In this document: piece by piece, positions 6,713-29,975 of the stretch
How positions within the stretch are numbered: the stretch's first letter is position 1
Layout: each line of letters starts with the position of its first letter
Source: Calditrichota bacterium
GTDB taxonomy: Bacteria; Calditrichota; Calditrichia; RBG-13-44-9; J042
Direction: 5' to 3'
NCBI GenBank assembly: GCA_013150955.1
Contig: JAADJD010000027.1
Span: 1 to 33,521, forward strand
Length of the DNA stretch: 33,521 nt
Made by a program: the position numbers and the translations under genes
Notes under the pieces: model-generated
What the model was told of the DNA's origin: nothing
Databases searched by the model: none
The model's input: the letters and a program-made list of their open reading frames with translations, nothing else

Positions 6713-6919
6713 AACCCAGGTAATACAATAAACCGCGAATCACGCGAATGAAACCAAAAAATATATACAAAAATCGCGAATAAACTCTGAACCACATTTT
6801 CATCCAGACACAATCCAATGTATTTTATTGGTTTTATTTGTGTTAATTCGTGTAATTCGTAGGCTAATGCATAATCTGGGATTAATTTTATTTGTGTTCA
6901 TTCGTGTCATTCGCGGTCT
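6713..6919 (+). repeat. Interspersed repeat family, copy A (with extra right arm)
   Basis: Left arm AACCGCGAATCACGCGAATG at 6731-6750. The invariant core TTTTCATCCAGA is at 6797-6808. The right arm, with ATTCGTGTAATTCGTAGG, ends near 6863. It is followed by the outer terminal sequence (AATGCATAATCTGGGATT, read at about 6866-6883). A second partial right arm (TTCATTCGTGTCATTCGCGG) follows at 6897-6916, so this copy is compound. It lies in the convergent gap between glyA and the SGNH gene. Confidence 0.85.
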
Positions 6920-6935
6920 ATTTTGTCGAAAAGGA

Positions 6936-6966
6936 AAAGCCCGGTCCATAGACCGGGCTTTATTAT
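6936..6966. terminator. Bidirectional terminator between glyA and the SGNH-hydrolase gene
   Basis: A perfect 11-bp inverted repeat (AAGCCCGGTC, loop CATA, GACCGGGCTT plus flanking A/T) is present. It is followed by T-rich sequence when read on either strand. The position fits the 3' end of the minus-strand SGNH operon, and it may also stop glyA transcription. Confidence 0.8.
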
Positions 6967-6991
6967 TGTAGGTATTATGGGAGCCCCGCAA

Positions 6992-8524
6992 TTATTTCGT
7001 ATCTCCCTTAACAAACAGATGTTTGACGCCCTCCAGTGCGCGTTCGGCCGCCTCGGTAATTCGGATCTTGCCGGAATATCCCTGCAGTTCCTTCAGATAC
7101 TGTCCCTTGAACTGGGCTGTATTCACTGGCGGAATTTCCAGCCCGATTGCCTGGCCGAAAGATTTGTTAATCACTTCAATAAATTCGTTGGCAATCAGGG
7201 CGTATCCGCCATTGTTGGGATGCACACCATCCAGACTGAAGGCTGTATTCTCTAAATCAAACAGCACATATTTTCCGGTATATCCATCAATACCAGACGT
7301 ATTTAATGTGGTAAGCATGGTATTGGCATCCACGATGGGAACCTGGTACGTCTGGGCCAGGGTGTTAATGATGTTATTGAACCCATCCACCGCGTCCCGA
7401 ATGGACTGGGTCTCGTCCGCGGTTAAAGAGAGATTGCCAGGAATGGGAATTCCGGTGGGGTTCAATCCGCTGGCGATCATCCCCTGCACGATCTGGCCCG
7501 CCTGAACGGCAGCGACGGCCGCATCCACACCGAGCTGGATGAGGAAATCCGCGATGAAAGCCGAATCCGGTACCCCGATGCCCTTCTTATAAGCCGTTAA
7601 GTATGGCAACAGCAGGTGGGCAACACCGGTTTCTTCCATTTTTAAAGGCAGATAAAGAACGGCACCGGCTGCGGTATCGGGATCGAAATCAACCGGCTGG
7701 AAGTTTTCATCAAACACGACGGGCAATTTCCCCAGTTGACCGAAATCCATAAAAATCCCGTCCAGAGCATTCACGTAAGGAATGTCTGTTACATAGGGGA
7801 TGTTTGCCATGACAATCTGGGCACTGCTCTTTTCACGGATGGTGGAGAGGATGGTTTCCAGGCGGGTTTGAAAATCTTCCTGAGACGTAATCTGGGTCAG
7901 ATCCCCACCATCGATTGCGGCACCCAGAACATCGTTATTCCCGATCCATAGCAAGATTAATGATGGATTTAAGAGCAATGCTTGTTCGAGCATGGTGAGA
8001 TTGCCGAGCTCCGGATTCCGTAATACAATTCTAAAAAATGGATTTGTTATGCTGATTTTTGTGTTTAACACATCATTCAGGTCTGCACCCGGCACCGCTA
8101 AATTATCATACGGTCGGGGCAGCTTGGCATTGGAAAGTAACTCCTCCACCTGATCGGCCAGGGTGGAGTCCACAACAGCCGGGCCCGTAGGGGTCATTCG
8201 CAATGGTCCCGCAACATAATTGGTGTCGCTCAATTCGGTAGACCCAATTCCCGGCTCTTCGATCCAAGGCATGGCAAATCGCCAGCTAATCCCCATCTGT
8301 TTGGCAATTAAATAGGGATAGCTATTTTCCTGGAAGGAACGAACCAATCCGGAAGATTGGTATCCCGCTGTCAGACTATTCCCGATGGCCACCACCTTCC
8401 GTAAAAACGAGTTTTGCAGCTGTTCGGGGGTCAGGGTGATTTTTTCCGGTGTCGGGGTGGGCAACTCACACCCAAACCAGAGCATAAAGGATAAAAGGAC
8501 AATGCATATGATGATTTTTTTCAT
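6992..8524 (-). CDS. SGNH/GDSL-hydrolase lipoprotein
   Basis: 510 aa. The ATG at 8524 is chosen, rather than a longer frame, because AGGAGAG lies just upstream and a lipoprotein signal starts there (MKKIIICIVLLSFMLWFGC, Cys19). SGNH blocks are visible. GNSLTAG carries the nucleophile Ser50 (block I, with N in place of the usual D). GNND is block III. DGVHPNNGGY near the C-terminus supplies the Asp and His (block V). The family hydrolyses ester or thioester bonds in lipids, glycolipids or acetylated sugars. A long insertion between blocks III and V is rich in small residues. The gene lies 28 nt after the FadL-type gene in one operon, suggesting ester cleavage at the envelope coupled to uptake of the released acyl chains (inference). 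Confidence 0.88.
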   Translation of the reverse strand: MKKIIICIVLLSFMLWFGCELPTPTPEKITLTPEQLQNSFLRKVVAIGNSLTAGYQSSGLVRSFQENSYPYLIAKQMGISWRFAMPWIEEPGIGSTELSDTNYVAGPLRMTPTGPAVVDSTLADQVEELLSNAKLPRPYDNLAVPGADLNDVLNTKISITNPFFRIVLRNPELGNLTMLEQALLLNPSLILLWIGNNDVLGAAIDGGDLTQITSQEDFQTRLETILSTIREKSSAQIVMANIPYVTDIPYVNALDGIFMDFGQLGKLPVVFDENFQPVDFDPDTAAGAVLYLPLKMEETGVAHLLLPYLTAYKKGIGVPDSAFIADFLIQLGVDAAVAAVQAGQIVQGMIASGLNPTGIPIPGNLSLTADETQSIRDAVDGFNNIINTLAQTYQVPIVDANTMLTTLNTSGIDGYTGKYVLFDLENTAFSLDGVHPNNGGYALIANEFIEVINKSFGQAIGLEIPPVNTAQFKGQYLKELQGYSGKIRITEAAERALEGVKHLFVKGDTK

Positions 8525-8552
8525 TTTTATCTCTCCTGTGTTTTTTGTCTCA

Positions 8553-9830
8553 TTACCTAATCGAATAACCAAAGCTGAAGAATACCAGCGATGCGTTTGA
8601 AGCATAGCTGCCATTAAATTCGGCGACGGGGATGCCATTTTCGATCGTGCTGCGAGTGCCAAAATTGACGAACATGTATCCCGCATCGACAGTTAATTTT
8701 CCTGTCTTGTAGCCGAATCCAAACGAGAAGTTGTTACGGTCATTATCCGGCAGCAGAGGAGAGACGGAATGGGTCGGTTGGGGTGTCTTATCCCGAATGT
8801 AACCGGCACGCAGGGATAAGTTGTCATTTAATTCATAATGGACGCCTAAGCGCAGGGTATAGCTGTCCCGATAGTCTTCTTCGATTTTGGTATCCAGCCG
8901 ATAATTTTCAAAATCCAGCACCAGTTCTTTAAAAATCGACCAGGTGTAGTAATTATAGTCTAATTCGACACCCAGTTTGGGGGTAACTTTAAAGTACATT
9001 CCTACGGTGATGATTCCCGGAAAGGGGATCTCGGTGGAACCTTTCTGGTCCACAAACAGCTGCAGGTTATCCACAAAAAGCGTCTTGTATTGATCGTAAA
9101 TGGTAAAATCAGCGGTGGCGTCCTCAAATTTGTTGATTATTCGATGGCGATAGGATAAACCGAAGCCAACCCGCTCAGAACGGGCCATTAAACTGGCGGT
9201 GAAGCCCACAGCCAGTTTGGATGTGCCTTCCATGTACACAGTACCCACTTCCACTCCGGGATCCGAATTGGGAGGATCGATGGACACCAGTAGATAGCGA
9301 TCCAGGATAACTTGAGAGGTGACGATATCCAGTCCACCACCCAGGCTGATGTAGGGGCTGATCTGATAGGCGACGACTGGAGAAATGTAAAACGAACGAA
9401 TTTCAGAATTCTTTGAGAAATATTTTCCGGGGAAATCGTCGGACCATTTCAGCCCCAGACCGAAGGGATTGGTTACTCCAATGCCAAAGCCCAGTCGTTC
9501 GGTAAATTTGTGGGCAATGTAGATGCCGATTGGGGTGAAGACCTGCGACTCGGCATCATAGACGTTGCCTGCCCAGGGATACGGTTCGGGTCCCACATAG
9601 CGGGCTTTGGGGAAAATCAAGGTCGTTCCCCCGTAAAATTGGGTCCCTTTCAGGAAGGCCAGACCGGCAGGATTGTAAAAAATGGTGGACGCATCCACTG
9701 CCTGGGCGACTGTTGCCCCGGCCATTGCCGATGCGCGGCCGCCGAATTCGTAAAGGGCAAATCCGCCTCCCAGAATACTGCTCGCCGAAAAGAGCAAAAT
9801 AACCACGATAGCGATGAATTTTTGATGCAT
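8553..9830 (-). CDS. FadL/OmpP1/TodX-family outer-membrane transporter
   Basis: 425 aa with a Sec signal (MHQKFIAIVVILLFSASSILGGG). The mature N-terminus shows the family plug or hatch signature, GRASAMAGATVAQAVDASTIFYNPAGLA (residues about 31-58), including the NPAGL motif. The rest is beta-strands with the terminal strand FFSFGYSIR. Family members pass hydrophobic compounds, such as fatty acids and aromatic hydrocarbons, laterally through the outer membrane. A GGAGGAGG ribosome site lies upstream of the ATG. It is the first gene of a two-gene operon with the SGNH lipoprotein. A sigma-70-like promoter is visible about 60-90 nt upstream. Confidence 0.93.
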   Translation of the reverse strand: MHQKFIAIVVILLFSASSILGGGFALYEFGGRASAMAGATVAQAVDASTIFYNPAGLAFLKGTQFYGGTTLIFPKARYVGPEPYPWAGNVYDAESQVFTPIGIYIAHKFTERLGFGIGVTNPFGLGLKWSDDFPGKYFSKNSEIRSFYISPVVAYQISPYISLGGGLDIVTSQVILDRYLLVSIDPPNSDPGVEVGTVYMEGTSKLAVGFTASLMARSERVGFGLSYRHRIINKFEDATADFTIYDQYKTLFVDNLQLFVDQKGSTEIPFPGIITVGMYFKVTPKLGVELDYNYYTWSIFKELVLDFENYRLDTKIEEDYRDSYTLRLGVHYELNDNLSLRAGYIRDKTPQPTHSVSPLLPDNDRNNFSFGFGYKTGKLTVDAGYMFVNFGTRSTIENGIPVAEFNGSYASNASLVFFSFGYSIR

Positions 9831-9890
9831 AGGGCCTCCTCCAGAGTTAGTTAAGTTTAGATTTTTGAAAACTTGCTTCTGCTGTTAAAG

Positions 9891-9919
9891 ATTTTAAGAA
9901 AGCCATCTAAAAAAATCAA
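9891..9919 (-). promoter_or_regulatory. Putative promoter of the FadL-SGNH operon
   Basis: Read on the minus strand, TTGATT (9919-9914) and TAAAAT (9896-9891) are separated by 17 bp, a good sigma-70 match. A start near 9884 would give a leader of about 54 nt. This is sequence match only. Confidence 0.45.
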
Positions 9920-10030
9920 GAGGTATTGCGTGAATCCTTTGATATATCAATACATTAGGGGAAATTTTCGAAGAATGAAGGAGGGTGGGACAGGATTTGC
10001 CGAATGGGAACCGAAAAAAATTTTTTTCGT

Positions 10031-10059
10031 TTGGAAAAAGTGGAATTAGAAACTATATT
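10031..10059 (+). promoter_or_regulatory. Putative sigma-70 promoter of the ferritin-perR operon
   Basis: TTGGAA (10031-10036), a 17-bp spacer and TATATT (10054-10059) precede the ferritin-like gene. Transcription would start around 10066, inside the Per/Fur-type palindrome. This is the classical geometry for repression by such a regulator. Confidence 0.6.
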
Positions 10060-10073
10060 CATAATGATTATGA
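10059..10073. promoter_or_regulatory. PerR/Fur-type operator (perfect 7-1-7 palindrome)
   Basis: TCATAAT-G-ATTATGA is a perfect 7-1-7 inverted repeat. It differs from the B. subtilis Per box consensus (TTATAATNATTATAA) only at the second position of each half, and similarly from the Fur 7-1-7 box. It abuts the -10 element and covers the predicted start of transcription. The operon encodes its own PerR-type regulator, so autoregulation is likely (inference). Confidence 0.8.
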
Positions 10074-10112
10074 TTTTGGTTATTGGCTAAACAAAAAACA
10101 GGAGGATGCATC

Positions 10113-10556
10113 ATGAGCAACACCAAAGTGGACAAGCAAACCCTCATTGACGGATTGAATGAAGATCTCGCCAATGAGTATCAGGCCGTCATCACGTATC
10201 TCACGTATGCCGCCTGCGTGAGCGGTATTCATCGCCAGGAATTAAAAGAGTTCTTTGAAAAAGAGATTCAGGAAGAACTCCAGCACGCTCAATTTCTGGC
10301 TAACAAAATTGCTGCACTGGGTGGTAAACCCACCACTGTTCCGGCAAACGTGCCTTACACCGAAAATCCGAAGGAGATGCTGGAAAACGTCTTGAAAGCC
10401 GAGACGGAAACCATTGAGCGTTATGTGGAACGCATGAAGCAGGCAGAAGCGTACGGTGACTATGGACTGGCCAACGATCTGCATGATATCATTAGCGACG
10501 AAACCAGCCACAAGGAAGAAACCGAGAAAATTTTAAAAGGTTATCAGGGTGACTAA
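10113..10556 (+). CDS. Ferritin-like (bacterioferritin/Dps-like) iron-storage protein
   Basis: 147 aa. The ATG at 10113 is chosen because AGGAGG lies 7 nt upstream. It is a four-helix ferritin-like protein. Putative di-iron ligands are Glu22 (NEYQ), Glu55 and His58 (EELQHA), a Glu around 97-102 (AETETIE), and Glu130 with His133 (DETSHKEE). Proteins of this group oxidise Fe(II), often with peroxide, and store it as ferric mineral in the cytoplasm. It is first in an operon with a DUF2214 membrane protein and a PerR-type regulator, behind a Per-box-like operator. That context argues for a role in peroxide and iron stress. Whether it forms 12- or 24-subunit cages cannot be told from sequence. Confidence 0.88.
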   Translation: MSNTKVDKQTLIDGLNEDLANEYQAVITYLTYAACVSGIHRQELKEFFEKEIQEELQHAQFLANKIAALGGKPTTVPANVPYTENPKEMLENVLKAETETIERYVERMKQAEAYGDYGLANDLHDIISDETSHKEETEKILKGYQGD

Positions 10557-10568
10557 TGCCCAATGGTT

Positions 10569-10595
10569 CGAGGGTTCCCGTAAGTGGAACCCTCG
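10569..10595 (+). terminator. Intra-operon hairpin after the ferritin gene (attenuator-like)
   Basis: CGAGGGTTCC and GGAACCCTCG form a perfect 10-bp stem with a 7-nt loop, 13 nt after the ferritin stop codon. It lacks a T-run, so it is more likely a partial terminator or an mRNA-stabilising 3' hairpin. Either would allow higher ferritin than downstream expression. Confidence 0.5.
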
Positions 10596-10642
10596 ATTAA
10601 TAACGATTCCGATAAAACAAAATTAACGAATGGAGGAGTCCC

Positions 10643-11095
10643 GTGGTCGATATTTTGATCAAGTATGTTCACATTCTTTCCTTCATGGTGGTATTTACGG
10701 TGCTTTTTATGGAGATGATTTTTGTCAAATCCCAAAGTGCTGTAAGTGATCTGGTGCGGGTGCGCCGATATCAAAATATATTGCTGTTGTTTTTGGGGTT
10801 CACCCTGCTGTCTGGATTGATCAAATTGGTTACAATGGGAGAGCATGCGGCCATTTACATGAAAAATGGGGTATTTCACTTGAAAGTAACCCTGTTTCTT
10901 CTTATAACCATCTTAACATTCATCCCTTACCGGTTTTTCCGGAATATTTCGGCTGAACCGGCCGGAGCAGGGAGTCCACAGGAGGTTCCGGTTCCGCGAT
11001 CGGTACGGTTGATTGTTCACATTCAGATGATTCTTCTGGTATTATTGCCCTTGTTGGGGGTAATGATGGTGCGAGGCATCGGGTATTTTGGATAA
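10643..11095 (+). CDS. DUF2214-family integral membrane protein
   Basis: 150 aa, GTG start supported by GGAGGAG 8 nt upstream. Four hydrophobic helices are visible (about residues 5-27, 46-66, 80-97 and 127-147). Conserved-looking His residues lie at the helix ends (KYVHIL, HAAIYMKNGVFHLKV, VHIQMI), as in the DUF2214/CopD-like four-helix group, some of whose members bind haem. The function is unknown. It sits between the ferritin-like gene and the PerR-type regulator gene and is probably co-regulated. A role in membrane redox or metal handling during peroxide stress is only an inference. Confidence 0.75.
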   Translation: MVDILIKYVHILSFMVVFTVLFMEMIFVKSQSAVSDLVRVRRYQNILLLFLGFTLLSGLIKLVTMGEHAAIYMKNGVFHLKVTLFLLITILTFIPYRFFRNISAEPAGAGSPQEVPVPRSVRLIVHIQMILLVLLPLLGVMMVRGIGYFG

Positions 11096-11143
11096 TCCCC
11101 AAAACGGAGGGTGTAAATTGAATGCGAATGGAAGGTGAAAATA

Positions 11144-11608
11144 ATGAAAATTCAAATAGATCAGGCCATCACCCAGGCATTGCAACGGCACGGATTGCGC
11201 CCGACGCGTGCCCGGCAACTGATTCTGGCGTTGATTGAACAGGATAATCAACACTATACGCCGGAAGAAATGCTGGTGCGGTTGAATGCCATGGGAGAGC
11301 GGTTAAGTATTGCCACCCTGTATCAGAATCTGGCCAAGCTGGTGGATAAGGGATTGCTGGTGAAGTTTGTGGGATTGGATGGGGAATATCGCTACGATTA
11401 CAATAAAATGCCCCATCACCACCTGATCTGCAAGTCCTGTGGGCGTATAGTGGATGTGCTGGTGGATCAGACCCTGGATGCCATCGAACCGCAATTGATG
11501 GATGCAGATGGGCAAAAGAAGTTGCCGCCGGGATGGAAGATCCTGCAGCGTCGGGTGGATTTCATTGGCGTTTGCCCGGATTGCAGCCAGCATGGGACAG
11601 ATAATTAA
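11144..11608 (+). CDS. perR: PerR-type peroxide-sensing Fur-family repressor
   Basis: 154 aa. The ATG at 11144 is preferred because GGAAGG lies 8 nt upstream; an in-frame GTG lies 9 nt earlier. The protein has an N-terminal winged helix (LRPTRARQLIL, SIATLYQNLAKLVDKG) and a C-terminal metal-binding and dimer domain. The regulatory-metal ligands of B. subtilis PerR are all present at the same numbers (from memory): His37, Asp85, His91, His93 and Asp104. Asp104 is the residue that favours PerR-type peroxide sensing over Fur, which carries Glu there. The structural zinc site is Cys96/Cys99 and Cys144/Cys147. With Fe(II) the family represses; H2O2 oxidises a ligand His and releases DNA. The operator upstream of the ferritin gene is the evident target. 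Confidence 0.82.
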   Translation: MKIQIDQAITQALQRHGLRPTRARQLILALIEQDNQHYTPEEMLVRLNAMGERLSIATLYQNLAKLVDKGLLVKFVGLDGEYRYDYNKMPHHHLICKSCGRIVDVLVDQTLDAIEPQLMDADGQKKLPPGWKILQRRVDFIGVCPDCSQHGTDN

Positions 11609-11639
11609 CCGGGTTTGGCAGTTGTGTAAAGTGGAGTCA

Positions 11640-11676: not shown

Positions 11677-11802
11677 CTTCGTTCCATGAAATGGGACATT
11701 CGATGGGCCGCATCTGCAGGTGTGTGGAGAATCCGGGTTGGATGAGGTGCCCCTGGAGAGGGTGAGGGAAGTGGTATTTTCCCGCTGGTGAACGGCTCTT
11801 TT

Positions 11803-11990
11803 AATCCAAATAAAGCGTTAAACCACGAAGCACGCGAATGAATTCGAATGATCCAAAAAATGCAATTAACCGCGAATCACACGAATGAAGCTAAAACACA
11901 TCCACAAATTGCGGATAAATCACAAAAACAAGTTTTCATCCAGATACAATTCAATCTATTTTTTTTATGTTAATTCGTGTCATTCGTGGT
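11803..11990 (+). repeat. Interspersed repeat family, copy B (left arm duplicated)
   Basis: The left arm appears twice: CCACGAAGCACGCGAATGAA at 11823-11842, then CCGCGAATCACACGAATGAA at 11870-11889. The invariant core TTTTCATCCAGA is at 11933-11944. The right arm TTAATTCGTGTCATTCGTGG ends at 11989. The copy occupies the convergent gap between perR and the beta-helix lipoprotein gene. The rest of the gap (11677-11802) shows nothing recognisable. Confidence 0.85.
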
Positions 11991-12007
11991 CAAAAGTATA
12001 ATTTAGA

Positions 12008-13030
12008 TTAATTGCGACTGGTTTCTTTCACTTCCGGGCTGATCCAGTCCCCCAGCGGGCCTCCAAAAGCCCCCTGATCGTTGCGGGTGCCGTCGGGATC
12101 CCGAAATTCTGGTGCGGGATTCCCCTGATCCCGGCAGGGTGAATTCGGTTGCAGGCGCAGATCCGTTTCCGACAAGAAGAGGGGATCCGGTTCATCCACT
12201 GAGAAGAAATTATACTGGCTGAGATAACTATCCGTCCCGGCGTGCAAAATTTCCAGTCGGGGATCCCCCTGATCGGATCGGTTCTGGAACACAATGTTGT
12301 TCTGGAGTTCGTCGAAGACAGGATTAAATAAAACCAGAGCACCCCCTACATTTTGAGAATAGTTTTTAAAAAACGTATTGTTAATTACCCGCGATCGGGA
12401 CTGGACGAGAAGCACGGCTCCTCCCATGGAAAGCGCCTGGTTTTCTTTAAAAATATTGTTGAACAGCTCCAGCTCGGATTCCAGCGCGACCAATCCCCCA
12501 CCCAGGAATGCTCGATTCTTCCGAATTAAACAGTTCATGAAGGTTGCCGAAGCGTTCTGAAGCACCACCCCACCGTAACCCGCATCACCGTAGGCTTCAC
12601 GCATGATCTTTTCAATGATGCAAAACCGAAATACCGAGGGGGTTTTCCGACCAAATAGTTGGATGCCCTGCCAGCTTTCGTCTTTTGCTGTGAAAGTAAT
12701 GAAGCTGTCCTGCCGGCCAATTGCACTGACGTTTCCCTGAACGATCAATGCGGTATGTGGTTCAAAATACAGGGTTACGCCGGCCTGGATGACCAGCGTT
12801 TTGTTCTCCGGGACGATCAGGCTTCCCGTTACCAGGAAGGGAGCATCTTTCAGGTAGAGGATCCCCTCAATGGTTCCCTGTAATTCCGTGTATTTGTTGG
12901 AATCGGGGCTTCCCGGGGCCAGCGGTTCCCGTACGGAGCAGGCAAACAGTATCACCAGTAGGGCCATCGCAGCACACCGCACCGGGCGCCATATTCCATC
13001 TGTTCTCTGTTGGGAGCCGAAAGTAATCAT
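12008..13030 (-). CDS. Right-handed parallel beta-helix lipoprotein
   Basis: 340 aa from the ATG at 13030. A lipobox (LLVILFAC, Cys31) follows an unusually long basic N-region. A second ATG at 12967 would give a shorter conventional signal, but neither start has a clear ribosome site. Residues about 55-110 and 125-260 are short repeated strands typical of pectate-lyase-like beta-helices (VIQAGVTLYFE; NASATFMNCLIRKNRAFLGGG; ESELELFNNIFKENQALSMGG; NNTFFKNYSQNVGG). The C-terminus has the SPCRDQGNP and DPDGTRNDQGAFGG pattern common in this group of surface proteins. It may bind or degrade polysaccharide, but no catalytic residues can be assigned. It lies 147 nt downstream of the dipeptidyl peptidase gene on the same strand. 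Confidence 0.82.
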   Translation of the reverse strand: MITFGSQQRTDGIWRPVRCAAMALLVILFACSVREPLAPGSPDSNKYTELQGTIEGILYLKDAPFLVTGSLIVPENKTLVIQAGVTLYFEPHTALIVQGNVSAIGRQDSFITFTAKDESWQGIQLFGRKTPSVFRFCIIEKIMREAYGDAGYGGVVLQNASATFMNCLIRKNRAFLGGGLVALESELELFNNIFKENQALSMGGAVLLVQSRSRVINNTFFKNYSQNVGGALVLFNPVFDELQNNIVFQNRSDQGDPRLEILHAGTDSYLSQYNFFSVDEPDPLFLSETDLRLQPNSPCRDQGNPAPEFRDPDGTRNDQGAFGGPLGDWISPEVKETSRN

Positions 13031-17231: not shown

Positions 17232-17274
17232 TGGCCCCGACGCGGGACAGGCTTGAAACAACCGCGAGCACTTT

Positions 17275-19011
17275 ATGAGAAAGAAAACCTGGGAATTTTC
17301 CCCGCAAACCCGATGGGAGTATCTTAACTGGCTGAAAAAGGAGACGCTGGACGTCCTGGTAATTGGCGGAGGCATTACCGGTGCCGGGATTGTTCGTGAC
17401 GCGGCCATGCGGGGACTGAAGACTGCCCTGATCGAAAAAGGCGATTTTGGCGGGGGTACCAGCAGTAAATCATCTAAATTAATTCATGGGGGATTTCGCT
17501 ACCTGTCTCAGTTTAAATTTGGACTGGTACACGAGGCGCTGATTGAACGTCGAACGCTGATGCAACTGGCTCCTCACCTGGTTTATCCGCAGGAATGCCT
17601 GCTGCCGATTTATGGACATTCCCGTAGTTCACCATTTATGATTCACATCGGCCTCTGGCTGTACGATTTGCTGGCCGGCCGGCGAAACATTGGCCGGCAC
17701 CGGATGGTTTCGGTGAATCGAATGTCTCGCATTGAACCCCTGTTACGCCGGGAAGATTTACGGCAGGTGGCCATTTATTATGATGGAAAGGCGGATGATT
17801 TTCGGCTTGTGCTGGCCACTTTACAAAGTGCCTCCTGGCACGGGGCGGCCATTGCCAATTATGTGCAGGCAGAGGAGGTGGCCATGGAGAACGGGCGCCT
17901 TGCGGCTGTGGCGGCTATCGATCACCTGACCGGCGAGCGCTTCTGGATCAAAACCCGCTGCGTGGTGAATGCCACCGGCCCCTGGAGCGATGTGGTGCGC
18001 CATCATCTTTTGCAGGTTACCGATCGACGGGTGCGCACCACCAAGGGAATCCACCTGGTCATTCATCGGGAAGATCTGCCCATCCGCCACGCCGTGATGG
18101 TGTTTGCCCCTCAGGATGGGCGTCCCATCTTTGCAATTCCCTGGAAACGCTTTGTCCTGCTGGGCACCACCGACACCGATTACACCGGCGATCCCGACTG
18201 GATCCCCACGGAGCGCAGCGATGTGGATTATCTGCTGGAGGCGTACAATGATTATTTCCCCGGGGCCCGACTGACCGACGAGAAGATCGTTTCCACATTT
18301 GCCGGGCTGCGGCCGTTAATTTACGAGGAAAACAAATTGGCATCGGATATCACGCGCGAACACTTCATTTTCGAGGGGCCGCCGCTGTTTTTTTCCATCA
18401 TCGGGGGCAAACTGACGACCTATCGGGTGATGGCGCGGGAAATTGTAGATCGGGTTCTGCAACGGCTGGATCGGGTGTATGGCGTGAAACCCCTGCATCC
18501 CGAATGTCGCACCGCACGGGAACCCCTGGCCGGTGGGGCCATTTCTTCCTTCCCCGCATTCCGTGAGCGATGGATCCAGCGATTGCACAGCGAAGACAAA
18601 CTTCCCCGGGATGTAGCGGAGCATCTCGTCGAAACCTACGGCAGCCAGCTGCCCACATTTCTGGAGGTGATGCACCGGGTGACGGATGGAACCGAGCGCC
18701 TGTTGCCCGATTTACCCTATGTGCGAGCGCAGATCGATTATGCCGTAAATTACGAGATGACCCTGGCCATGGACGATTTTTTGATCCGCCGAACCCATGT
18801 CTTTTCTCTGGATCGCGATCAGGGGCAGGCGGTTTACGAGTCCGTGGGGGATGTACTGGCCCGGTTGCTGGGTTGGGATCAGGAGGAGTGGCAACGTCAG
18901 GTGCAGCGTTACCGGAAAAAGATTACCTACACCCGTCGATACAGGGAGCAATCGGACAATGAAGACCAAACTCATCATCAATCCCAGAGCCGCCAACGGG
19001 AAGACCCGTAG
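17275..19011 (+). CDS. glpD: FAD-dependent glycerol-3-phosphate dehydrogenase
   Basis: 578 aa. The N-terminal FAD dinucleotide fold is VIGGGITGAGIVRDAAMRG (residues 29-47), followed by the family segment GTSSKSSKLIHGGFRYL. TKGIHLV, WKRFVLLGTTDTDY and GGKLTTYR are further GlpD hallmarks, with a C-terminal helical domain from about 400. It is membrane-associated and oxidises glycerol 3-phosphate to dihydroxyacetone phosphate, passing electrons to quinone. The last about 18 codons (polar tail RREQ...DP type) overlap the lipid-kinase gene in another frame, so the extreme C-terminus is probably not conserved. There is no strong ribosome site. DHAP is the precursor for the AGPS reaction, which gives the pairing biochemical sense. 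Confidence 0.93.
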   Translation: MRKKTWEFSPQTRWEYLNWLKKETLDVLVIGGGITGAGIVRDAAMRGLKTALIEKGDFGGGTSSKSSKLIHGGFRYLSQFKFGLVHEALIERRTLMQLAPHLVYPQECLLPIYGHSRSSPFMIHIGLWLYDLLAGRRNIGRHRMVSVNRMSRIEPLLRREDLRQVAIYYDGKADDFRLVLATLQSASWHGAAIANYVQAEEVAMENGRLAAVAAIDHLTGERFWIKTRCVVNATGPWSDVVRHHLLQVTDRRVRTTKGIHLVIHREDLPIRHAVMVFAPQDGRPIFAIPWKRFVLLGTTDTDYTGDPDWIPTERSDVDYLLEAYNDYFPGARLTDEKIVSTFAGLRPLIYEENKLASDITREHFIFEGPPLFFSIIGGKLTTYRVMAREIVDRVLQRLDRVYGVKPLHPECRTAREPLAGGAISSFPAFRERWIQRLHSEDKLPRDVAEHLVETYGSQLPTFLEVMHRVTDGTERLLPDLPYVRAQIDYAVNYEMTLAMDDFLIRRTHVFSLDRDQGQAVYESVGDVLARLLGWDQEEWQRQVQRYRKKITYTRRYREQSDNEDQTHHQSQSRQREDP

Positions 19012-19885
19012 AATCTGGCCCGTGTTGAAGTCGATATTGGCACAAAAGTGGCCGGGTGCGTTTGATGCGGAGTTTACCGAATATCCCGGACATGCCACGC
19101 GTCTCACCCACACCGCGCTGACTCAGGGCTATGCGTGCATTCTTTCCGTGGGGGGCGATGGTACCCTGAACGAGGTGTTGAATGGCTTTTTTGAAAACGG
19201 TACCGACCGTCCGTTACCCGGTGTACTGGGGGTGATCGAAATTGGTACCGGGTGCGATTTTGCTCGAACCATTGGCATGCCCACCGATCCGCGGGCGGCA
19301 GTGGACTATCTAATCCAGGCCCAACCCGTGCCCACGGATGTGGGACGAGCCCGTTTTCAGACGTTGTCTGGAGAAGAGAGCGTCCGGTATTTCATCAACA
19401 TCCTGGATTTTGGCATTGGTGGAGCCGTGGTAGAGCGGGTAAATCGCACCTCGAAGGCGCTGGGTGCCCGCATCACCTTCCTGTACGGTATTCTGGCCAC
19501 TCTGGCAACTTACACCAATAAGACCATTGAGTATCGTCTGGATGAAGCGGACTGGAAGCAGGCCCGGTTGAATAATTTTATTGTCGCCAACGGCCGGCAT
19601 TTTGGGGGCGGATTGACCCCGGCGCCAATGGCCCGTATCGATGATGGCTGCTTTGAGATTGTCCTGTTTGGCGATATTGGCCGCTGGCAGGCCGTTACCA
19701 ATCTCTCCCGCCTGCGAAAAGGCACGCACCTGGAGAATCCGCTGGTGACCACTGCCCAGGCCAGAACAGTGGTGGCGCGCTCGGCCGAAGAGGTGTTCAT
19801 CGATATGGACGGCGAGCTGGTGGGGAAGCTGCCGGTGACGGTGGAAATTTTGCCCGCAGTCCTGCCGGTGCTTCGGCAGGCATGA
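18959..19885 (+). CDS. Diacylglycerol-kinase-family lipid kinase
   Basis: 308 aa. The ATG at 18959 lies inside the end of glpD (53-nt overlap, shifted frame) and is preceded by AGGGAG, so translation is probably coupled. The DAGK/YegS/LCB5 catalytic domain shows IINPRAANGK (residues 6-15), the nucleotide and metal loop SVGGDGTLNEVLNG (63-76) and GTGCDFAR. The C-terminal beta domain has NGRHFGGGLTPAPMARIDDG and the closing IDMDGE. The family phosphorylates diacylglycerol or related lipid alcohols with ATP at the inner membrane face. In this context a mono- or di-radyl glycerol substrate is plausible but unproven. Confidence 0.92.
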   Translation: MKTKLIINPRAANGKTRRIWPVLKSILAQKWPGAFDAEFTEYPGHATRLTHTALTQGYACILSVGGDGTLNEVLNGFFENGTDRPLPGVLGVIEIGTGCDFARTIGMPTDPRAAVDYLIQAQPVPTDVGRARFQTLSGEESVRYFINILDFGIGGAVVERVNRTSKALGARITFLYGILATLATYTNKTIEYRLDEADWKQARLNNFIVANGRHFGGGLTPAPMARIDDGCFEIVLFGDIGRWQAVTNLSRLRKGTHLENPLVTTAQARTVVARSAEEVFIDMDGELVGKLPVTVEILPAVLPVLRQA

Positions 19886-20040
19886 TTTAGGATAAAGCGT
19901 TAAACCACAAATCACGCGAACGAAACCAATAAATATCAATTTTTAATCGCGAATAAACCTCGAAACACATTTTCATCCAGAAATAATCCAATGTATTTTA
20001 TTAATCCTATTCGTGTTAATCCGTGTAATTCGTGGTTTAC
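19886..20040 (+). repeat. Interspersed repeat family, copy C
   Basis: It begins directly after the lipid-kinase stop codon. Left arm AAACCACAAATCACGCGAACGAA is at 19902-19924 (a few mismatches). Core TTTTCATCCAGA is at 19970-19981. Right arm TTCGTGTTAATCCGTGTAATTCGTGG ends at 20035. The outer right terminus (AATGCATAATCC...) is missing. A 7-bp hairpin (CCTGCCG/CGGCAGG, 19861-19880) lies just before it, inside the last kinase codons. Confidence 0.85.
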
Positions 20041-20151
20041 TGCAACATCTGAGACAAAAACCACCTGGCTGTTCCAGGAGCTTTCCCATTCTGCGAAAAT
20101 CCACCGACCTTTTATTTGCCTTTCCGGGAAATCTCCCTTAAACTTCATTGT

Positions 20152-23381: not shown

Positions 23382-24014
23382 ATGATACGCATTGTGATTG
23401 TGGAGGATAATCGCACCATTCGGGAAGGACTGACCGTGCTGATTAACGGCACGGAAGGGTTGCGTTGTGTGGCATCTTACCGGGATTGTGAAAAGATGCT
23501 GAGTCAGCTGGAGCAGGATCAACCCGATTTGATCCTGATGGACATTGGGTTGCCTGGTATGTCCGGGATTGAAGGGGTGAAGCGGGTCAAGGAAAAACGT
23601 CCGGAAACGCAGGTGGTTATGTTAACGGTTTATGAGGACGATGAATCCATTTTTAAAGCCCTGTGCAATGGCGCGATTGGTTATTTGTTGAAGAAGACGC
23701 CCCCGGCTCAGTTGCTGGAGTCCATTCGCAGTGCCTACGAGGGGGGCTCTCCCATGAGCAGCCAGATTGCGCGCAAGGTGGTAAATTTTTTCCAGCGGTT
23801 TGCCCCGGAAGAAAGCGAACAACCCACTTTGAGCAAGCGCGAGCTGGAAATTCTGGAGGGATTGTCCCGCGGGAACAGCTACAAAATGCTGGCTGATTCC
23901 CTGTGCATTAGCATGGACACAGTGCGCTACCACATCCGAAATATTTACAAGAAGTTGCATGTGCATTCCCAGTCCGAGGCGGTAGCCAAGGCGCTGCGTA
24001 AGGGGTGGATTTAG
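23382..24014 (+). CDS. NarL/LuxR-family response regulator
   Basis: 210 aa. The receiver domain has the acidic pair (VEDN), phospho-acceptor Asp54 (LILMDIGLPG), the switch Thr in MLTVYED and Lys in YLLKKT. The C-terminal LuxR-type HTH runs from about residue 146 (LSKRELEILEGLSRGNSYKMLADSL, then DTVRYHIRNIYKKLHVHSQSEAV). It is a DNA-binding partner for the upstream HisKA_3 kinase, which is the class NarL-type regulators normally pair with. It lies 122 nt downstream on the same strand. Its regulon cannot be inferred, although the AGPS-glpD-kinase operon is the nearest upstream neighbour. The stop codon touches repeat copy D. Confidence 0.96.
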   Translation: MIRIVIVEDNRTIREGLTVLINGTEGLRCVASYRDCEKMLSQLEQDQPDLILMDIGLPGMSGIEGVKRVKEKRPETQVVMLTVYEDDESIFKALCNGAIGYLLKKTPPAQLLESIRSAYEGGSPMSSQIARKVVNFFQRFAPEESEQPTLSKRELEILEGLSRGNSYKMLADSLCISMDTVRYHIRNIYKKLHVHSQSEAVAKALRKGWI

Positions 24015-24180
24015 CCCAGGTTATGCATTCGCCTACGAATGAACCCAGATAAAAATAATGCCATCCTTTGGATGATGTCTGGATGAAAATGGGTTTTAGG
24101 GTTGATTTGCCATTTTTGTGGATATTTTTGGTTTCATTCGCGCGATTCATGGTTTAATGCTTTATTTGGGTTTATCCTGG
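24014..24180 (-). repeat. Interspersed repeat family, copy D (inverted)
   Basis: Reverse orientation, starting at the response-regulator stop codon. The outer terminus CCCAGGTTATGCATTCGCC is at 24015-24033. Core (as TCTGGATGAAAA on +) is at 24078-24089. The arm TTTCATTCGCGCGATTCATGG is at 24132-24152, followed by the distal terminus with TTTGGGTTT near 24166-24174. It has an extra GGATG near the core compared with other copies. Confidence 0.85.
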
Positions 24181-24980: not shown

Positions 24981-25316
24981 ATGGATGAACCAATGAATCG
25001 AACCGTATCGCCATTGCCCTTCCCGATTCCCCGTGATGGGAAGAATCTGACGCGAGTACCGGGATCTAATCTGGTGACGTTTCAGACGGGAATGGAAATG
25101 TCCCATATAGCGGATTTTTACCGGCAGGAGTTTGCCGAATGGGGATTCCAGGAGCGAACGGATCTTAATGCCGAGCGGCTGGATTTTCTCCGCCTGGTGT
25201 TCGAGAACCTGCAGGATGGTTCCATGGTGGTGGTTCAGATCATGAATTTAAAATACACCATGAGCATTGATATGCGGTATGTGAATATTTATCAGGAGCA
25301 TCAGCGTATTTGCTAA
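24981..25316 (+). CDS. Small conserved-looking cytosolic protein, function unknown
   Basis: 111 aa. The ATG at 24981 follows GGAGGGG at 10 nt; an in-frame upstream extension has no support. The protein begins with a Pro-rich segment (PLPFPIPRDGKNLTRVPGSNLVTFQT). It continues with 'MEMSHIADFYRQEFAEWGF', then a beta-rich part (LVFENLQDGSMVVVQIM). The pattern 'f.t.m....v..FYr..l...Gw.e' followed by strands recurs in small bacterial domains, often in lipoproteins, of no assigned function. There is no signal peptide or metal motif. It is convergent with the HIRAN protein gene 66 nt away. Confidence 0.65.
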   Translation: MDEPMNRTVSPLPFPIPRDGKNLTRVPGSNLVTFQTGMEMSHIADFYRQEFAEWGFQERTDLNAERLDFLRLVFENLQDGSMVVVQIMNLKYTMSIDMRYVNIYQEHQRIC

Positions 25317-25382
25317 TCCCTGTATTCAGCCGTTCTTTCACTGTTAACCATCTTTAGAATCGAGCCAGGGGGCTGGCTGCCG

Positions 25383-25787
25383 TTATTGCTGCAACAGCCA
25401 GACCCGTATCTGCACCTGCTGCCAGGGGGGTGCTTCCGGCTGAATACCGGCGATGCGTCCAACCAGCGGCACCCCGTTTTGCAGCAACCGACTGATGTGA
25501 CGATTGTCGCTACGGGGCACGTAACCAATCTGTCGGCCCCGATAAAGAATTTTGACCGCAAATTCGTCGTGCGGATTGGTGGGTTCCACTTCAAGGGAGA
25601 TCCGTTCTCCGACCTTCATCAGGGGTAGCAATGCCGGCCCCCTGTAATATTGAAATCCCGCAATGCTGAACTGATTCATCAAAACTCCCCGTTCGGGATG
25701 TTCCTTTGCGGTCAATTCCCGAAATCCCAGCAGGCCCAATAATGGCAGGGCCAGAATTTGTTGTAGAAATTTCCGTCGCGATAGCAT
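25383..25787 (-). CDS. HIRAN-domain protein with a Tat-like signal
   Basis: 134 aa; AGGAGGG lies 5 nt before the ATG. The N-terminus has a twin-arginine motif (SRRKFLQQ, residues 3-10) and a hydrophobic stretch (ILALPLLGLLGF), ending near TAKE. From about residue 42 it is a HIRAN domain: AGFQYYRGPAL, then LEVEPTNPHDEFAVKI, then IGYVPRSDN and a final strand. HIRAN domains are known as DNA-end-binding modules of HLTF-type helicases, but free-standing bacterial forms exist whose role is unclear. An exported one would not be acting on chromosomal DNA. It stands alone, followed by a small convergent gene and preceded by repeat copy E. Confidence 0.82.
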   Translation of the reverse strand: MLSRRKFLQQILALPLLGLLGFRELTAKEHPERGVLMNQFSIAGFQYYRGPALLPLMKVGERISLEVEPTNPHDEFAVKILYRGRQIGYVPRSDNRHISRLLQNGVPLVGRIAGIQPEAPPWQQVQIRVWLLQQ

Positions 25788-25827
25788 CTTATCCCTCCTG
25801 GTTTTTCGCTGAATGTGTTATTCGGAA

Positions 25828-25981
25828 AACCGGTTAAACCCACGAATGAAACCAGAAAATATCTGCAAAATCGCGGATAAACCCCGGGACACATTTTCAT
25901 CCAGACATCATCCAATGGGTTTTATTATTTTATTCGTTTTTATTCGTGTCATTCGTAGGGCGATTGCATAATCCGGGTTAA
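25828..25981 (+). repeat. Interspersed repeat family, copy E (short left arm)
   Basis: The left arm is shortened: AACCCACGAATGAAACC at 25837-25853, lacking the second CGAAT half. Core TTTTCATCCAGA is at 25894-25905. Right arm TTATTCGTGTCATTCGTAGGG is at 25939-25960, followed by the outer terminus GATTGCATAATCCGGGTTA. It is the only copy that sits between divergent genes, about 40 bp upstream of the HIRAN gene start. Confidence 0.85.
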
Positions 25982-26395
25982 ACGCGCCATCCAGAAGCCG
26001 GTTTTTCAGATGGCATCCGAACGGAAGAGCGAATCGAACCACAACACCTGAATATCAGGATGCGCTTCTGTGGAACAACAATGTTTCTCCGGGCTATTCC
26101 CGAATCTTGAAAGAACCCGGGTTAATCATGTGGCTGTTCGCATCCGTTCGAGAAAAAGATCCGCATCGAAGAAGATTCACTTTCGCCCTGTTTCAGAGAA
26201 AATCCGTCCGTAAATTGATCGTTCATAAAAAGTACTTTTTATTAGATGCTCCGGAGTAAATGTTCCCGGAAAAAATATTCTGTGAAACGCCGGTTGTTCT
26301 AAGGAATCTAATCATGCGGCAGTGGATCGGGTACCCGGAAGTGAATTTATCTGGGTTTGTTGTGGAATTGCGGGCAATGAGGAAGGATTGGGGTT
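25982..26395. other. Intergenic region upstream of the flippase gene
   Basis: 414 bp with no convincing gene. A 43-codon basic frame (26128-26259) lacks a ribosome site and family resemblance. Small inverted repeats (GCCATC/GATGGC near 25987-26016; CCTGA/TCAGG near 26048-26060) are present. The last bases hold the AGGAAGG ribosome site of the next gene. Confidence 0.35.
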
Positions 26396-27727
26396 GTGGA
26401 AACGCGTCTATCATTTAAACGCATCTTGAAATTGTGGTTGCCGCTGGCTTCCACCTGGCTCATGATGGCGTTCGAAGGGCCATTTCTTTCGGCGGTGATT
26501 GCCCGATTGCCCGACGAAACGTTTAATCTGGCCGCTTACGGGGTGGCCTTCTCCTTTGCCCTCATTATCGAGGCGCCCATCATCATGATGCTCAGTGCTG
26601 CCACCGCTCTGGTCAGGGATGTACCCAGTTATCGAAAATTGCGCAACTTTACGTTTTTTCTGAATGGGGCATTGACCCTGGTGCTGGTTTTGTTGTTGAT
26701 CCCACCGGTATTCCATCGGGTAATGATTGACTGGATCCAGTTGCCGGCGGAAGTGGCCCGATTGACCCGGTGGGCGCTGTGGATTTTGTTGCCCTGGCCA
26801 GGAGCCATTGGTTACCGACGATTTTTTCAGGGAATTTTGATCCGGTTTAACCAGACCGGTAAGGTGGCACTGGGAACGCTCCTGCGATTGGGAACGGTGA
26901 TCACGGTCGCCTTGTCTCTGGCTTATTGGGGAAGCCTGCCCGGGGTGGTGGTTGGCGCCGCGGCACTTTCCGCGGGGGTAGTCGTGGAAGCCCTGGCCGG
27001 CCGCTGGATGGCCCAATCCATTATCCGATCTCTGTTTCGAGCCCCATCCCCGGACATTCCTTCCGATACCGGTAAATTAACCTACCGAAGCATTGCGGCC
27101 TTTTATTATCCCCTGGCACTGACGGCGCTACTGGCGCTGGCGGTGCATCCCATTGCCACATTTTTTATGGGGCGAAGCCGCCTGCCGGTGGAGTCCCTGG
27201 CCGTTCTTCCGGTCATGAATGCCCTGATTTTCATTTTCCGCAGTGTGGGATTGTCTTTTCAGGAAGTGGTCATTGCCCTGCTGGAAGAAAATCGCCGCTA
27301 TTATCCGACCATACGAAAATTTAGTTACCTTCTGGGTGGAGCATTGTTGACCGCCCTGGGACTGCTGGCCTTTACTCCCCTGCTGGATGTCTGGTATCAG
27401 ACCATCTCCGGGCTGAACCCCACACTCAGCCAGCTGGCAAAAATCCCGACCCGGATCATGGTCTGGATGCCGGTGTTGACCCTGTGGATTTCCTTTCAAC
27501 GGGCGGTTCTGGTGGTGACCCGGAAAACCCAGCCCATTACCCTGGCCAGCGTGCTGGAGGTTGGGGGGATTTCGCTGATTTTGTGGGTAACTATTTATCA
27601 CCTGGATTTTGTGGGGGTGGTTGCCGCAGCCCTGGCCTTCGTTCTGGGACGTTTGCTGGCCAATGGCTGGCTGTTTTTCCCGGTCTGGAAGGAAAGTCGT
27701 CGCTTTGGGGGCAATGCCATTTTGTAA
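26396..27727 (+). CDS. MATE/ANKH-like polytopic membrane transporter
   Basis: 443 aa, GTG start 9 nt after AGGAAGG. About 12 hydrophobic helices fall in two related halves. Each half opens with a 'PLA.T.L' segment (LWLPLASTWLMMA at about 13; FYYPLALTALLALA at about 232). This is followed by a loop with an 'ARLP' or 'SRLP' motif and then an R or Q-x-V helix, the pseudo-twofold plan of MATE-superfamily exporters. The closest resemblance I can name is the bacterial ANKH-like (progressive ankylosis) branch, because of the loop wording in the first half; drug or lipid flippases are alternatives. The substrate is unknown. It is monocistronic, with repeat copies on both sides. Confidence 0.75.
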   Translation: METRLSFKRILKLWLPLASTWLMMAFEGPFLSAVIARLPDETFNLAAYGVAFSFALIIEAPIIMMLSAATALVRDVPSYRKLRNFTFFLNGALTLVLVLLLIPPVFHRVMIDWIQLPAEVARLTRWALWILLPWPGAIGYRRFFQGILIRFNQTGKVALGTLLRLGTVITVALSLAYWGSLPGVVVGAAALSAGVVVEALAGRWMAQSIIRSLFRAPSPDIPSDTGKLTYRSIAAFYYPLALTALLALAVHPIATFFMGRSRLPVESLAVLPVMNALIFIFRSVGLSFQEVVIALLEENRRYYPTIRKFSYLLGGALLTALGLLAFTPLLDVWYQTISGLNPTLSQLAKIPTRIMVWMPVLTLWISFQRAVLVVTRKTQPITLASVLEVGGISLILWVTIYHLDFVGVVAAALAFVLGRLLANGWLFFPVWKESRRFGGNAIL

Positions 27728-27812
27728 ACCGTTTGCAGGAAATCGGGATCTGTTTCAGAGACATTGGTAACCGCATGCATCATCCGGATTGAAAATGCCG
27801 CCCAATATTTAT

Positions 27813-27987
27813 CCCGGATTATGGATTCGCCTACGAATGACACGAATTGAACGAATAAAAATAATTTGGTGATATCTGGATGAAAATGTGTTCCAGGGTT
27901 TATTCACGATCTTGTGGATATGTCTTGGTTTCATTCGCGTGATTCGCGGTTTAATGAATTATTTGGTTTAACGCATGATTTGGGTTT
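27813..27987 (-). repeat. Interspersed repeat family, copy F (inverted)
   Basis: Reverse orientation. The outer terminus CCCGGATTATGGATTCGCC is at 27813-27831, directly followed by the arm TACGAATGACACGAATTGAA. Core (TCTGGATGAAAA on +) is at 27875-27886. The arm TTTCATTCGCGTGATTCGCGG is at 27929-27949. The distal terminus (GCATGATTTGGGTTT) ends near 27987 after a small insertion. It lies between the flippase and the NtrC-like gene. Confidence 0.85.
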
Positions 27988-28359
27988 GTTGCATCCTTGG
28001 ATTCGTCTGGCAAGTCCCTTTTTCCTGCCAATCAGATGTTCTGAACCCGGCGGGATTGAGGATACCGGCCTGGGCAGCAGCAGGTAGGAAGGCGCGTCCT
28101 GCTGGCATAAAATTTGGACAGTTTTATGGTGCTGGATGTGGAGCTGGAGACAATCTTTCCTGCGGGACAGTGGGAGAAGAAAGCCAGAAAAAGCGATTTA
28201 CCTGTTCCCGAACGGAAGAAGTAGGGATTATCGATTGAAAGCGGGGTTCTGTGGTGGTGAGTGTTGGGAATCGATATCGGGATGTCGGGAGCCACCTGTG
28301 TCAATTTTGCAACAATCCGGTGAATGATGTTGCCGATTGGAAACAGGGGAGTGGAACCC
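27988..28359. other. Intergenic region upstream of the NtrC-like regulator gene
   Basis: 372 bp without a convincing gene. A 32-codon frame near 28126-28224 has no ribosome site. GGGGAGTGG just before 28360 is the regulator's ribosome site. A partial match to a -24/-12 promoter (28103-28118) was considered and not accepted. Confidence 0.35.
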
Positions 28360-29727
28360 ATGAATCGAATCCTGGCCGTTAGTGAAGATGAAGAATTTTT
28401 GATGGCCCTGACCAACCGGCTCCAAGATCCTTTATTTCAGGTGGAAACGCTTGCGGATCCGCTGGCGGCGGAGACCGCCTGCCGAAAGAAATCGTACGAT
28501 TGCGTGTTTATTGATCTGGAAATGACGGCCAGGGAAAGGCTGGCGCTGGTGCAAAAACTACTGACCCTTCAACCCGGCGTTCCGGTAATCGTGACGGCCA
28601 CCCGGAATACTCTGCCGGCCGCAATGGAAGCCATAAACATCGGTGCATTTGATTTCGTTGAGAAGCCCGTCCCCGCGGAACGATTGCGGATCTCCCTGCA
28701 ACATGCAGTGGAATGGAAACACTGGCAGGAGGAAAAACGGAATCTACTGGTGCAACTGGAAGAAACGTATCTCATGATTGGGGTGAGTGATGGCATGCGT
28801 CAGGTGTTTGAGGCCATTCAGCGGGTGGCGCCCTCCAGGGCTCGTGTGCTGGTGCTGGGGGAAAGCGGGACGGGCAAGGAGCTGGTGGCACGGGCCATTC
28901 ATCATCAGAGTCCCCGGAATGGTAAACCATTCGTGAAAGTAAATTGTGCCGCCATTCCAGCGGAGGTACTGGAACGCAAACTTTTTGGGTTTCCCGGGAA
29001 CGGGTTGATGGCCGCAGCGGGGAATTCCAGCGGGAAAGTGCTGGCAGCCAACGGCGGCACGCTCTTCCTGGACGAAATTGCCGACCTCGATTTCCGGTTG
29101 CAGGCGCAATTGCTACGGGTGCTGGAACGGGAAGCCGTTGAAAGCCCGGGAGATCATCTGCCCCATCCGGTGGATGTGCGCATCATTGCCGCTACCAACA
29201 AGAATCTGGAACGGCGGGTGGCTGCCGGGAGGTTTCGGGAAGACCTGTACCATCGGCTCAATGTGGTTCAGATTTATGTGCCACCCCTTCGCGAACGTGT
29301 GGAGGACATTATTCCGCTGGCCAATTATTTCTTACAACATTTTGCCGAGATGTTCAACAAACCGTTGACCGGTTTTACCCCCGGCGCCCTGCGTCTATTA
29401 ACCGAGCATGAGTGGCCAGGAAATGTGCGTCAGTTGAAAAGGGTCATCGAATATGCCGCCTTTTTCGCTCAGGACGGGCTCATCCGCGAGGAGGACGTTC
29501 AAATGGCGTTTTATTCCCGAAATGGCCCGTTGATTGAATCCGACGATCCGGTGTCCCTGAAGGCAGCGCGAGATGCCTTTGAGCGGCAATTTATTTTGAC
29601 GCGGCTTCAGCGTACGGGCTGGAAGATCCAGGAAACCGCGCGGTTATTGAAAATTGACCGATCGGCACTATTTAAGAAAATGCGCAAGCTCGGGATCGTC
29701 CGCCAGTCTCACTCCGGGCCAAAATAA
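28360..29727 (+). CDS. NtrC-architecture response regulator with a replaced GAFTGA loop
   Basis: 455 aa. The ATG at 28360 is favoured by GGGGAGTGG upstream. Receiver domain 1-120 has Asp52 (VFIDLEM), Thr in TATRN and Lys102 (FVEKPV). AAA+ domain about 136-370 has Walker A GESGTGKE (167-174), Walker B GGTLFLDEI (232-240), sensor I ATNKNL, REDLYHRLNV and GNVRQL. The Fis-type HTH is at the end (IQETARLLKIDRSALFKKMRKLGI). In the column where sigma-54 activators have GAFTGA, this protein has NGLMAA (about 214-219) with no length change. The loop that contacts sigma-54 is therefore lost while the ATPase looks intact. It probably works with sigma-70, like TyrR or R. capsulatus NtrC. No partner kinase gene is adjacent. 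Confidence 0.93.
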   Translation: MNRILAVSEDEEFLMALTNRLQDPLFQVETLADPLAAETACRKKSYDCVFIDLEMTARERLALVQKLLTLQPGVPVIVTATRNTLPAAMEAINIGAFDFVEKPVPAERLRISLQHAVEWKHWQEEKRNLLVQLEETYLMIGVSDGMRQVFEAIQRVAPSRARVLVLGESGTGKELVARAIHHQSPRNGKPFVKVNCAAIPAEVLERKLFGFPGNGLMAAAGNSSGKVLAANGGTLFLDEIADLDFRLQAQLLRVLEREAVESPGDHLPHPVDVRIIAATNKNLERRVAAGRFREDLYHRLNVVQIYVPPLRERVEDIIPLANYFLQHFAEMFNKPLTGFTPGALRLLTEHEWPGNVRQLKRVIEYAAFFAQDGLIREEDVQMAFYSRNGPLIESDDPVSLKAARDAFERQFILTRLQRTGWKIQETARLLKIDRSALFKKMRKLGIVRQSHSGPK

Positions 29728-29817
29728 ATCGTCTGCCCAATGGGTTCCAGTTCCATCGACCCAATTAAGTTGGGATACCCAAAATTAAGCAATCGTTTTA
29801 GCCGAAATCATGCTTTG

Positions 29818-29975
29818 ACCCAGATAATGCATGAAACCACGAATCACACGAATGAAAACAAAAAGTGTCTACAAAATCGCGAATCAATCCTGAAACACAT
29901 TTTCATCCAGATATCATCAAAATATTCTTATTCGTTTAATCCGTGTCATTCGTAGGCAAATGCCCAATCCGGGTT
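29818..29975 (+). repeat. Interspersed repeat family, copy G (most complete ends)
   Basis: Left outer end ACCCAGATAATGCAT is at 29818-29832. Left arm GAAACCACGAATCACACGAA is at 29832-29851. Core TTTTCATCCAGA is at 29900-29911. Right arm TTTAATCCGTGTCATTCGTAGG is at 29935-29956, and the right outer end GCCCAATCCGGGTT finishes at 29975. Left and right ends are imperfect inverted repeats of each other. It lies between the NtrC-like gene and the promoter of the next operon. Confidence 0.88.

Follow-up and report, generated by a model that had tools for sequence, protein, structure and literature searches.

A genome-wide MITE family in a Calditrichota bacterium, most likely mobilised by an IS1380-family transposase

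The window considered here is the whole of a 33,521-nt stretch of contig JAADJD010000027.1 (assembly GCA_013150955.1) from a Calditrichota bacterium, whose genome is labelled G000 below. It holds seven clusters of an inverted repeat (Table 1), five on the forward and two on the reverse strand, all of which contain exactly the 12-base core TTTTCATCCAGA, just as the initial annotation had reported. There is also one core match with a single mismatch, while shuffled sequences at this threshold (up to one mismatch) give a mean of 0.36 matches and at most 2, and a profile model of the repeat recovers the same seven clusters, two of which include an extra arm fragment. Other parts of that first description proved correct as well: the arms are inverted and rich in CGAAT, the copies have a common outer end, and no transposase is present among the 10 window proteins scanned. 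The copy boundaries first proposed were nearly right, but the modal element is 165 bp long and the target duplication accounts for the outermost bases of AACCCGG. The first repeat is closely followed by a terminator-like hairpin (AAAGCCCGGTC-CATA-GACCGGGCTTT, positions 6936-6961) that is separate from the repeat family.

Table 1. Repeat copies, arm fragments and core positions in the window.
Feature	Position	Strand	Remarks
Full MITE copy, 166 bp, CCC..GGG	6715..6880	+	flanks TTGAA / ATTAA, no exact duplication; limits read from sequence
Right arm, truncated, of another copy; adjoins the 6715..6880 copy	6881..6920	+	model 128-167
Fragment of an arm from another copy; adjoins the 11851..12021 copy	11795..11851	-	model 135-191
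MITE copy, degenerate ends	11851..12021	+	model hit limits
MITE copy, degenerate ends; starts at the end of ORF 18797-19885	19879..20068	+	model hit limits
MITE copy, 156 bp; abuts the stop codon of ORF 23382-24014	24015..24170	-	flanks ATAAA / CTAAA, one mismatch
MITE copy, left end truncated	25837..25986	+	model hit limits
MITE copy, 172 bp	27813..27984	-	flanks ACAAA / ATAAA, one mismatch
MITE copy, 155 bp	29819..29973	+	flanks TTTGA / TTCAA, two mismatches
12-base core TTTTCATCCAGA, example	6797..6808	+	other starts 11933+, 19970+, 24078-, 25894+, 27875-, 29900+

The repeat unit is about 165 bp long, bounded by CCC..GGG and AT-rich (35% GC in the copies versus 50.5% for the sampled DNA), with long inverted ends whose terminal repeats read CCC(A/G)(A/G)AT(A/T)ATGCATTA and CACGAAT-like words, two to three of them, in the arms. 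When 51 core-bearing copies were used to start a profile, it recovered 72 full-length copies from the window and a further 382 kb, and adding the rest of contig C38 brought the set to 82 full copies in 505 kb. Both ends are recognisable in 72 of these 82, the other 10 having no recognisable end or lying at the edge of a stretch. Target duplications, which the initial annotation had suggested looking for, were found: an exact 5-bp duplication flanks 27 of the 72 end-bounded copies (shuffled pairing gives a mean of 5.1 and a maximum of 13 in 5000), the number rises to 45 when up to one mismatch is allowed (shuffled mean 25.1, maximum 39), and among lengths from 2 to 10 only this one exceeds chance at the CCC..GGG boundary. 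The duplication has the form WTNAW: its second base is T and its fourth A in all 27 cases, and the outer bases are A or T except once. In addition, eight of the 82 full copies interrupt another copy, the two parts of which resume adjacently in the model; these parts overlap by 4-5 model positions in three nestings, which is what target duplication would give, and by 9 or -1 to -6 in the rest. Two observations count against reading the repeats as a MITE, namely that an exact 5-bp duplication is lacking from all three window copies that were scored, and that identity to the consensus is the same with or without the duplication (0.870 versus 0.868), whereas its loss would be expected to go along with divergence. 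Nevertheless, by their ends, target duplication and nesting, together with the lineage restriction described below, the repeats are a MITE.

The family is real and genome-wide. The scan for further copies that had been advised found the exact core at 438 sites in G000 (4,068,269 bases in 66 contigs) and its reversed control at none, and the same 12-mer occurs at most 12 times in any of 59 other genomes. It is present at least once in 54 of the 60 genomes, G000 included, and the low background in relatives, a few occurrences per genome, is probably due to coding sequence. Longer words gave higher counts, with 654 sites in G000 for the 16-mer CACATTTTCATCCAGA (up to two mismatches) and 1089 for a 26-mer covering end plus arm (up to three mismatches). 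Extrapolation from the 82 full copies in 505 kb leads to about 660 genome-wide, which is a rough figure because the sampled stretches were picked partly for visible cores. The view that copies never lie inside a gene holds for most of them only: in the window plus 382 kb, the overlap with a greedy ORF set is no more than 20% for 60 of the 72 full copies (as for 12% of random 170-bp intervals), but greater for the other 12, six of which lie in ORFs by over half, and some of these ORFs may be spurious. AT-rich targets and selection against gene disruption suffice to account for this mostly intergenic placement, and there is no significant bias with respect to gene orientation (convergent p 0.25, divergent p 0.065).

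Comparison with a sequenced congener (G001) bears on when the copies spread. Its 115-kb contig C103, syntenic in long blocks with contig C38 of G000, gives no model match at E 0.001, while C38 has 23 clusters, and in 19 of 20 collinear cases the conserved blocks are spaced more widely in G000 (rough estimates, with two pairs of rows sharing a gap). The empty orthologous sites envisaged at the outset are thus visible at the level of the syntenic contig but hardly at that of single junctions, since queries made of joined flanks aligned across the junction in G001 in only one of 23 cases, with gaps right there. With up to three mismatches, the end-plus-arm 26-mer has two matches in G001, one in G007 and none in the other 37 genomes searched for the phylum. 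The matches in G001 mark both ends of one 307-bp element (L036 1505-1811, contig C15), the only one found there, which has the same ends, CGAAT arms and an exact ATAAT duplication, and contains no core within three mismatches. The interior of this element, about 200 bp with short TCTTCAA repeats, is unrelated, that is, a different passenger for the same ends. As for G007, which represents another family of the same order, its single match (L138 1501-1526, contig C504) is without mismatch, and no other end was found for it. A segment of about 24 kb is inverted relative to the congener, with breakpoint intervals at 38753-39348 and 63496-64939 of C38 (L059 and L060). Both intervals contain MITE copies (a cluster at 38779-39228 and a copy at 63680-63862), as if the inversion had been caused by recombination between them.

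Repeats of this kind might instead act at the RNA level, as a structured RNA, small RNA or terminator selected at many intergenic sites, and the consensus strand does fold better than its shuffles (z -4.2, DNA parameters). However, two-sided change is seen at none of 20 consensus pairs among 45 copies, so the fold looks like a by-product of the inverted ends; moreover, there is no Rfam match in the window at gathering scores, copies between tandem genes take either orientation about equally often (22 opposite, 18 same) and the congener's syntenic contig is free of model matches. An RNA-level element is therefore highly improbable.

The 12-base core, which had been singled out as invariant and as a possible binding site, was examined in two ways, with a profile model in which it was masked and with copies chosen by their ends alone. 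The masked model finds the exact core in 41 of 70 full copies. Selection by ends gave 85 end pairs, reduced to 72 that do not overlap, 71 of which match the model (the remaining one is a chance pair), and 41 of these 71 have the exact core. Identity in all seven window copies stands, but invariance does not extend beyond the window, and the former is largely a small-sample effect and partly luck. In the ends-only set, the core is the most conserved of 154 12-base windows (94.7% identity, 85.5% overall), a rank that supports the notion that it is better conserved than its flanks, but only just, since a window in the left arm reaches 94.2%; before removal of overlaps the figures are similar (exact core in 50 of 84, 95.1% for the core, 94.2% for the best window outside it and 85.3% overall). 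It is also unpaired in the consensus fold, as had been proposed. The core is thus a conserved block, best by a small margin and not in a class apart. That it might be a selected functional site of the MITE, such as a transposition enhancer or a site for a host or nucleoid protein, would fit this top rank, but the near-equal arm window, the 30 of 71 copies without an exact core and the congener element, which has an exact duplication and no core within three mismatches, all speak against it. A binding site is neither shown nor needed, and we consider it unlikely.

Which transposase moved these elements? The search in G000 covered PF01609-type genes, found at seven places, and Y1 genes. One of these seven places, at the start of contig C18, holds a transposase that matches PF13701 (E 1e-40), which we take to be the IS1380 transposase domain. 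A frameshift splits this gene, which is also incomplete because the contig ends within it, and the DNA beyond its 5' end finishes in CCCAGATTACGCAATAG; 8 bases of this end are then repeated, and TTTAT follows. Of 17 positions in the relic end CCCAGATTACGCAATAG, 15 agree with the right end of the MITE, CCCAGATTATGCATTAG. The same terminal 149 bp or so recur in a second fragment, on contig C8, which stops at the same point, next to TTTAA. The likeness is one of ends and not of interiors, which counts against an IS1380 partner. It also counts against such a partner as an active source that no intact autonomous IS1380 copy was found in G000: the one transposase copy detected there is the frameshifted gene at the end of its contig, although further copies could be concealed by gaps in the assembly. 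Near the relic (L065 about 1950-2200) there is an array of short near-palindromic repeats of the form AAAACATAnnnTTGTTTT.

Relatives in other genomes make the connection stronger. A search of genome contigs found 64 loci with IS1380 relatives, 31-71% identical over the best segment. Among 29 with long matches that were looked at, 21 were carried forward and eight dropped, seven of them without an end pair and one (L106) with an unconvincing pair and no duplication, which counts against the connection. Both ends were identified at 18 of the 21 loci, where they read CCC(A/G)(A/G)ATT..CCATTAG or near it, and an exact 5-bp duplication of the same type at 13, not all independent because two on one contig share flanks. 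These 13 come from eight genomes, namely two Nitrospira, Nitrosomonas, Nitrosospira, Candidatus Magnetominusculus, Undibacterium, Rhodoferax and a betaproteobacterium (5 of the 13). A 5-bp duplication, TATGA, also appears in a case given for ISEcp1, a member of the IS1380 family (PMC2887853). Within the phylum itself, further relatives at E 1e-30 occur only in G017 (31% identity), and the viral contigs searched contain neither an IS1380 relative nor an end-plus-arm match. The MITE is absent, as judged by the end-plus-arm 26-mer, from the 23 searched genomes with IS1380 relatives, which again counts against this partner. On balance, the sequences of the ends and of the duplications suggest that the partner of the MITE is most likely an IS1380-family transposase.

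The initial annotation had instead envisaged a RAYT-like partner, and a Y1 gene flanked by the same ends, which would make the copies REP/REPIN elements. They are indeed palindromic, intergenic and present in high copy number, and G000 has two Y1_Tnp genes. However, neither of these is directly bracketed by copies: the gene on contig C35 has a partial copy about 1.25 kb away on one side, while its other side is free of copies for more than 4 kb, and that on C13 is preceded by a copy at about 1.9 kb and followed by one at 0.46 kb, distances that are not unusual at such copy density. Furthermore, the copies show a 5-bp target duplication and CCC..GGG inverted ends, neither of which, to our knowledge, is expected from Y1 transposition. 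The ends, the WTNAW duplications and the matching ends of insertion sequences point to an IS1380-family DDE transposase, and movement by a Y1 enzyme has a negligible chance of being correct.

More serious, though still rather improbable, is a DDE transposase of another family such as IS5, with the likeness to IS1380 ends being coincidental. Some IS5 groups duplicate TNA, which lies inside the WTNAW duplication, and three-base TNA duplications likewise occur more often than after shuffling (40 of 72, against a mean of 20.5); besides, PF01609-type and Y1 genes were what the transposase search covered, and an IS5-like copy is present in G000. The three-base reading was replaced by the 5-bp one once the boundary was set at CCC..GGG, and it is the IS1380 relatives that have both the same end and the same type of duplication. 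The IS5-like and IS982-like transposases of G000 were set aside as partners, since their ends are apparently different. The apparent ends of the IS5-like copies (L064 on C4, L069 on C8) lie near GTAGAAACCTTTGATTTAA, and one such copy appears to interrupt a MITE copy while another adjoins the IS1380 fragment. Those of the copies that we presume to belong to the IS982 family (L067 on C14, L068 on C4) are TAGCACAACGGG.

Altogether, we favour, with a probability of about 0.87, a single MITE family that was mobilised by a DDE transposase with a 5-bp WTNAW target, most likely provided in trans by an IS1380 insertion sequence, and that expanded in a burst after the split from the congener. The transposase would recognise the CCC..GGG inverted ends, which its own insertion sequence and the MITE would have in common, and would duplicate the 5-bp target on insertion. 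It would have been supplied in trans by an IS1380-family element whose intact copy would end in CCCAGATTAYGCAWTAG, which may later have been lost, or be hidden in assembly gaps, and of which the frameshifted relic in G000 would be the remains. The burst would have spread several hundred copies, probably after separation from the sequenced congener, and those between genes would mostly have been kept, other insertions presumably being harmful. The earlier proposal of a mobile, non-autonomous family mobilised in trans is therefore probably right. A bolder version, according to which an IS1380-type MITE burst of some 660 full copies remade the intergenic DNA and the core TTTTCATCCAGA is a functional site absent from the congener element, appears doubtful to us.

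How does this family compare with known systems? REP/REPIN elements with their RAYT are similar in being intergenic palindromic repeats; they depend on a Y1 enzyme, and we know of none with CCC..GGG ends and a 5-bp duplication. No IS1380 MITE is described in literature on IS1380 and MITE, as far as the opening lines of abstracts show (which is not proof of absence), and a literature search by sequence word gave no match for CGAATCACACGAAT or six other arm words. ERIC, of which up to 711 copies are cited for Photorhabdus luminescens (PMC10969869), is likewise a very high-copy and mostly intergenic repeat, so the MITE is in the range of the highest copy numbers cited there; it differs from ERIC in having no Rfam match in the window (Rfam being what the sequence comparison covered) and in that its duplication and likely IS partner can be named. 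In a 2007 review, matches of bacterial repeats to insertion sequences are said mostly not to have been looked for or found (PMC2229807), and here a likely partner family is named for a very abundant bacterial MITE. The closest parallel is RUP of Streptococcus pneumoniae (107 bp, 108 copies), for which IS630-Spn1 is the proposed mover (PMC2229807). As presented there, RUP is also a MITE with ends that match an insertion sequence and its movement in trans is also deduced from ends and target; it differs in IS family and target, and the present MITE has several times more copies and a relic as source. MITE of this kind are thus a known phenomenon, and no known mechanism is overturned by one more that resembles RUP (PMC2229807) and other bacterial MITE, yet this particular family looks new and unusually abundant, with a lineage-specific burst and copies in both breakpoint intervals of an inversion. 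With IS1380 insertion sequences themselves, e.g. ISEcp1, the MITE has the 5-bp target duplication in common, and its 17-bp ends are nearly those of the IS1380 relatives found here; unlike them, it has no transposase gene, its interior is unrelated as far as seen, and it measures about 165 bp where they reach about 1.5 kb. A candidate MITE is thereby added to IS1380, the family to which ISEcp1, a mobiliser of CTX-M genes (PMC2887853), belongs.
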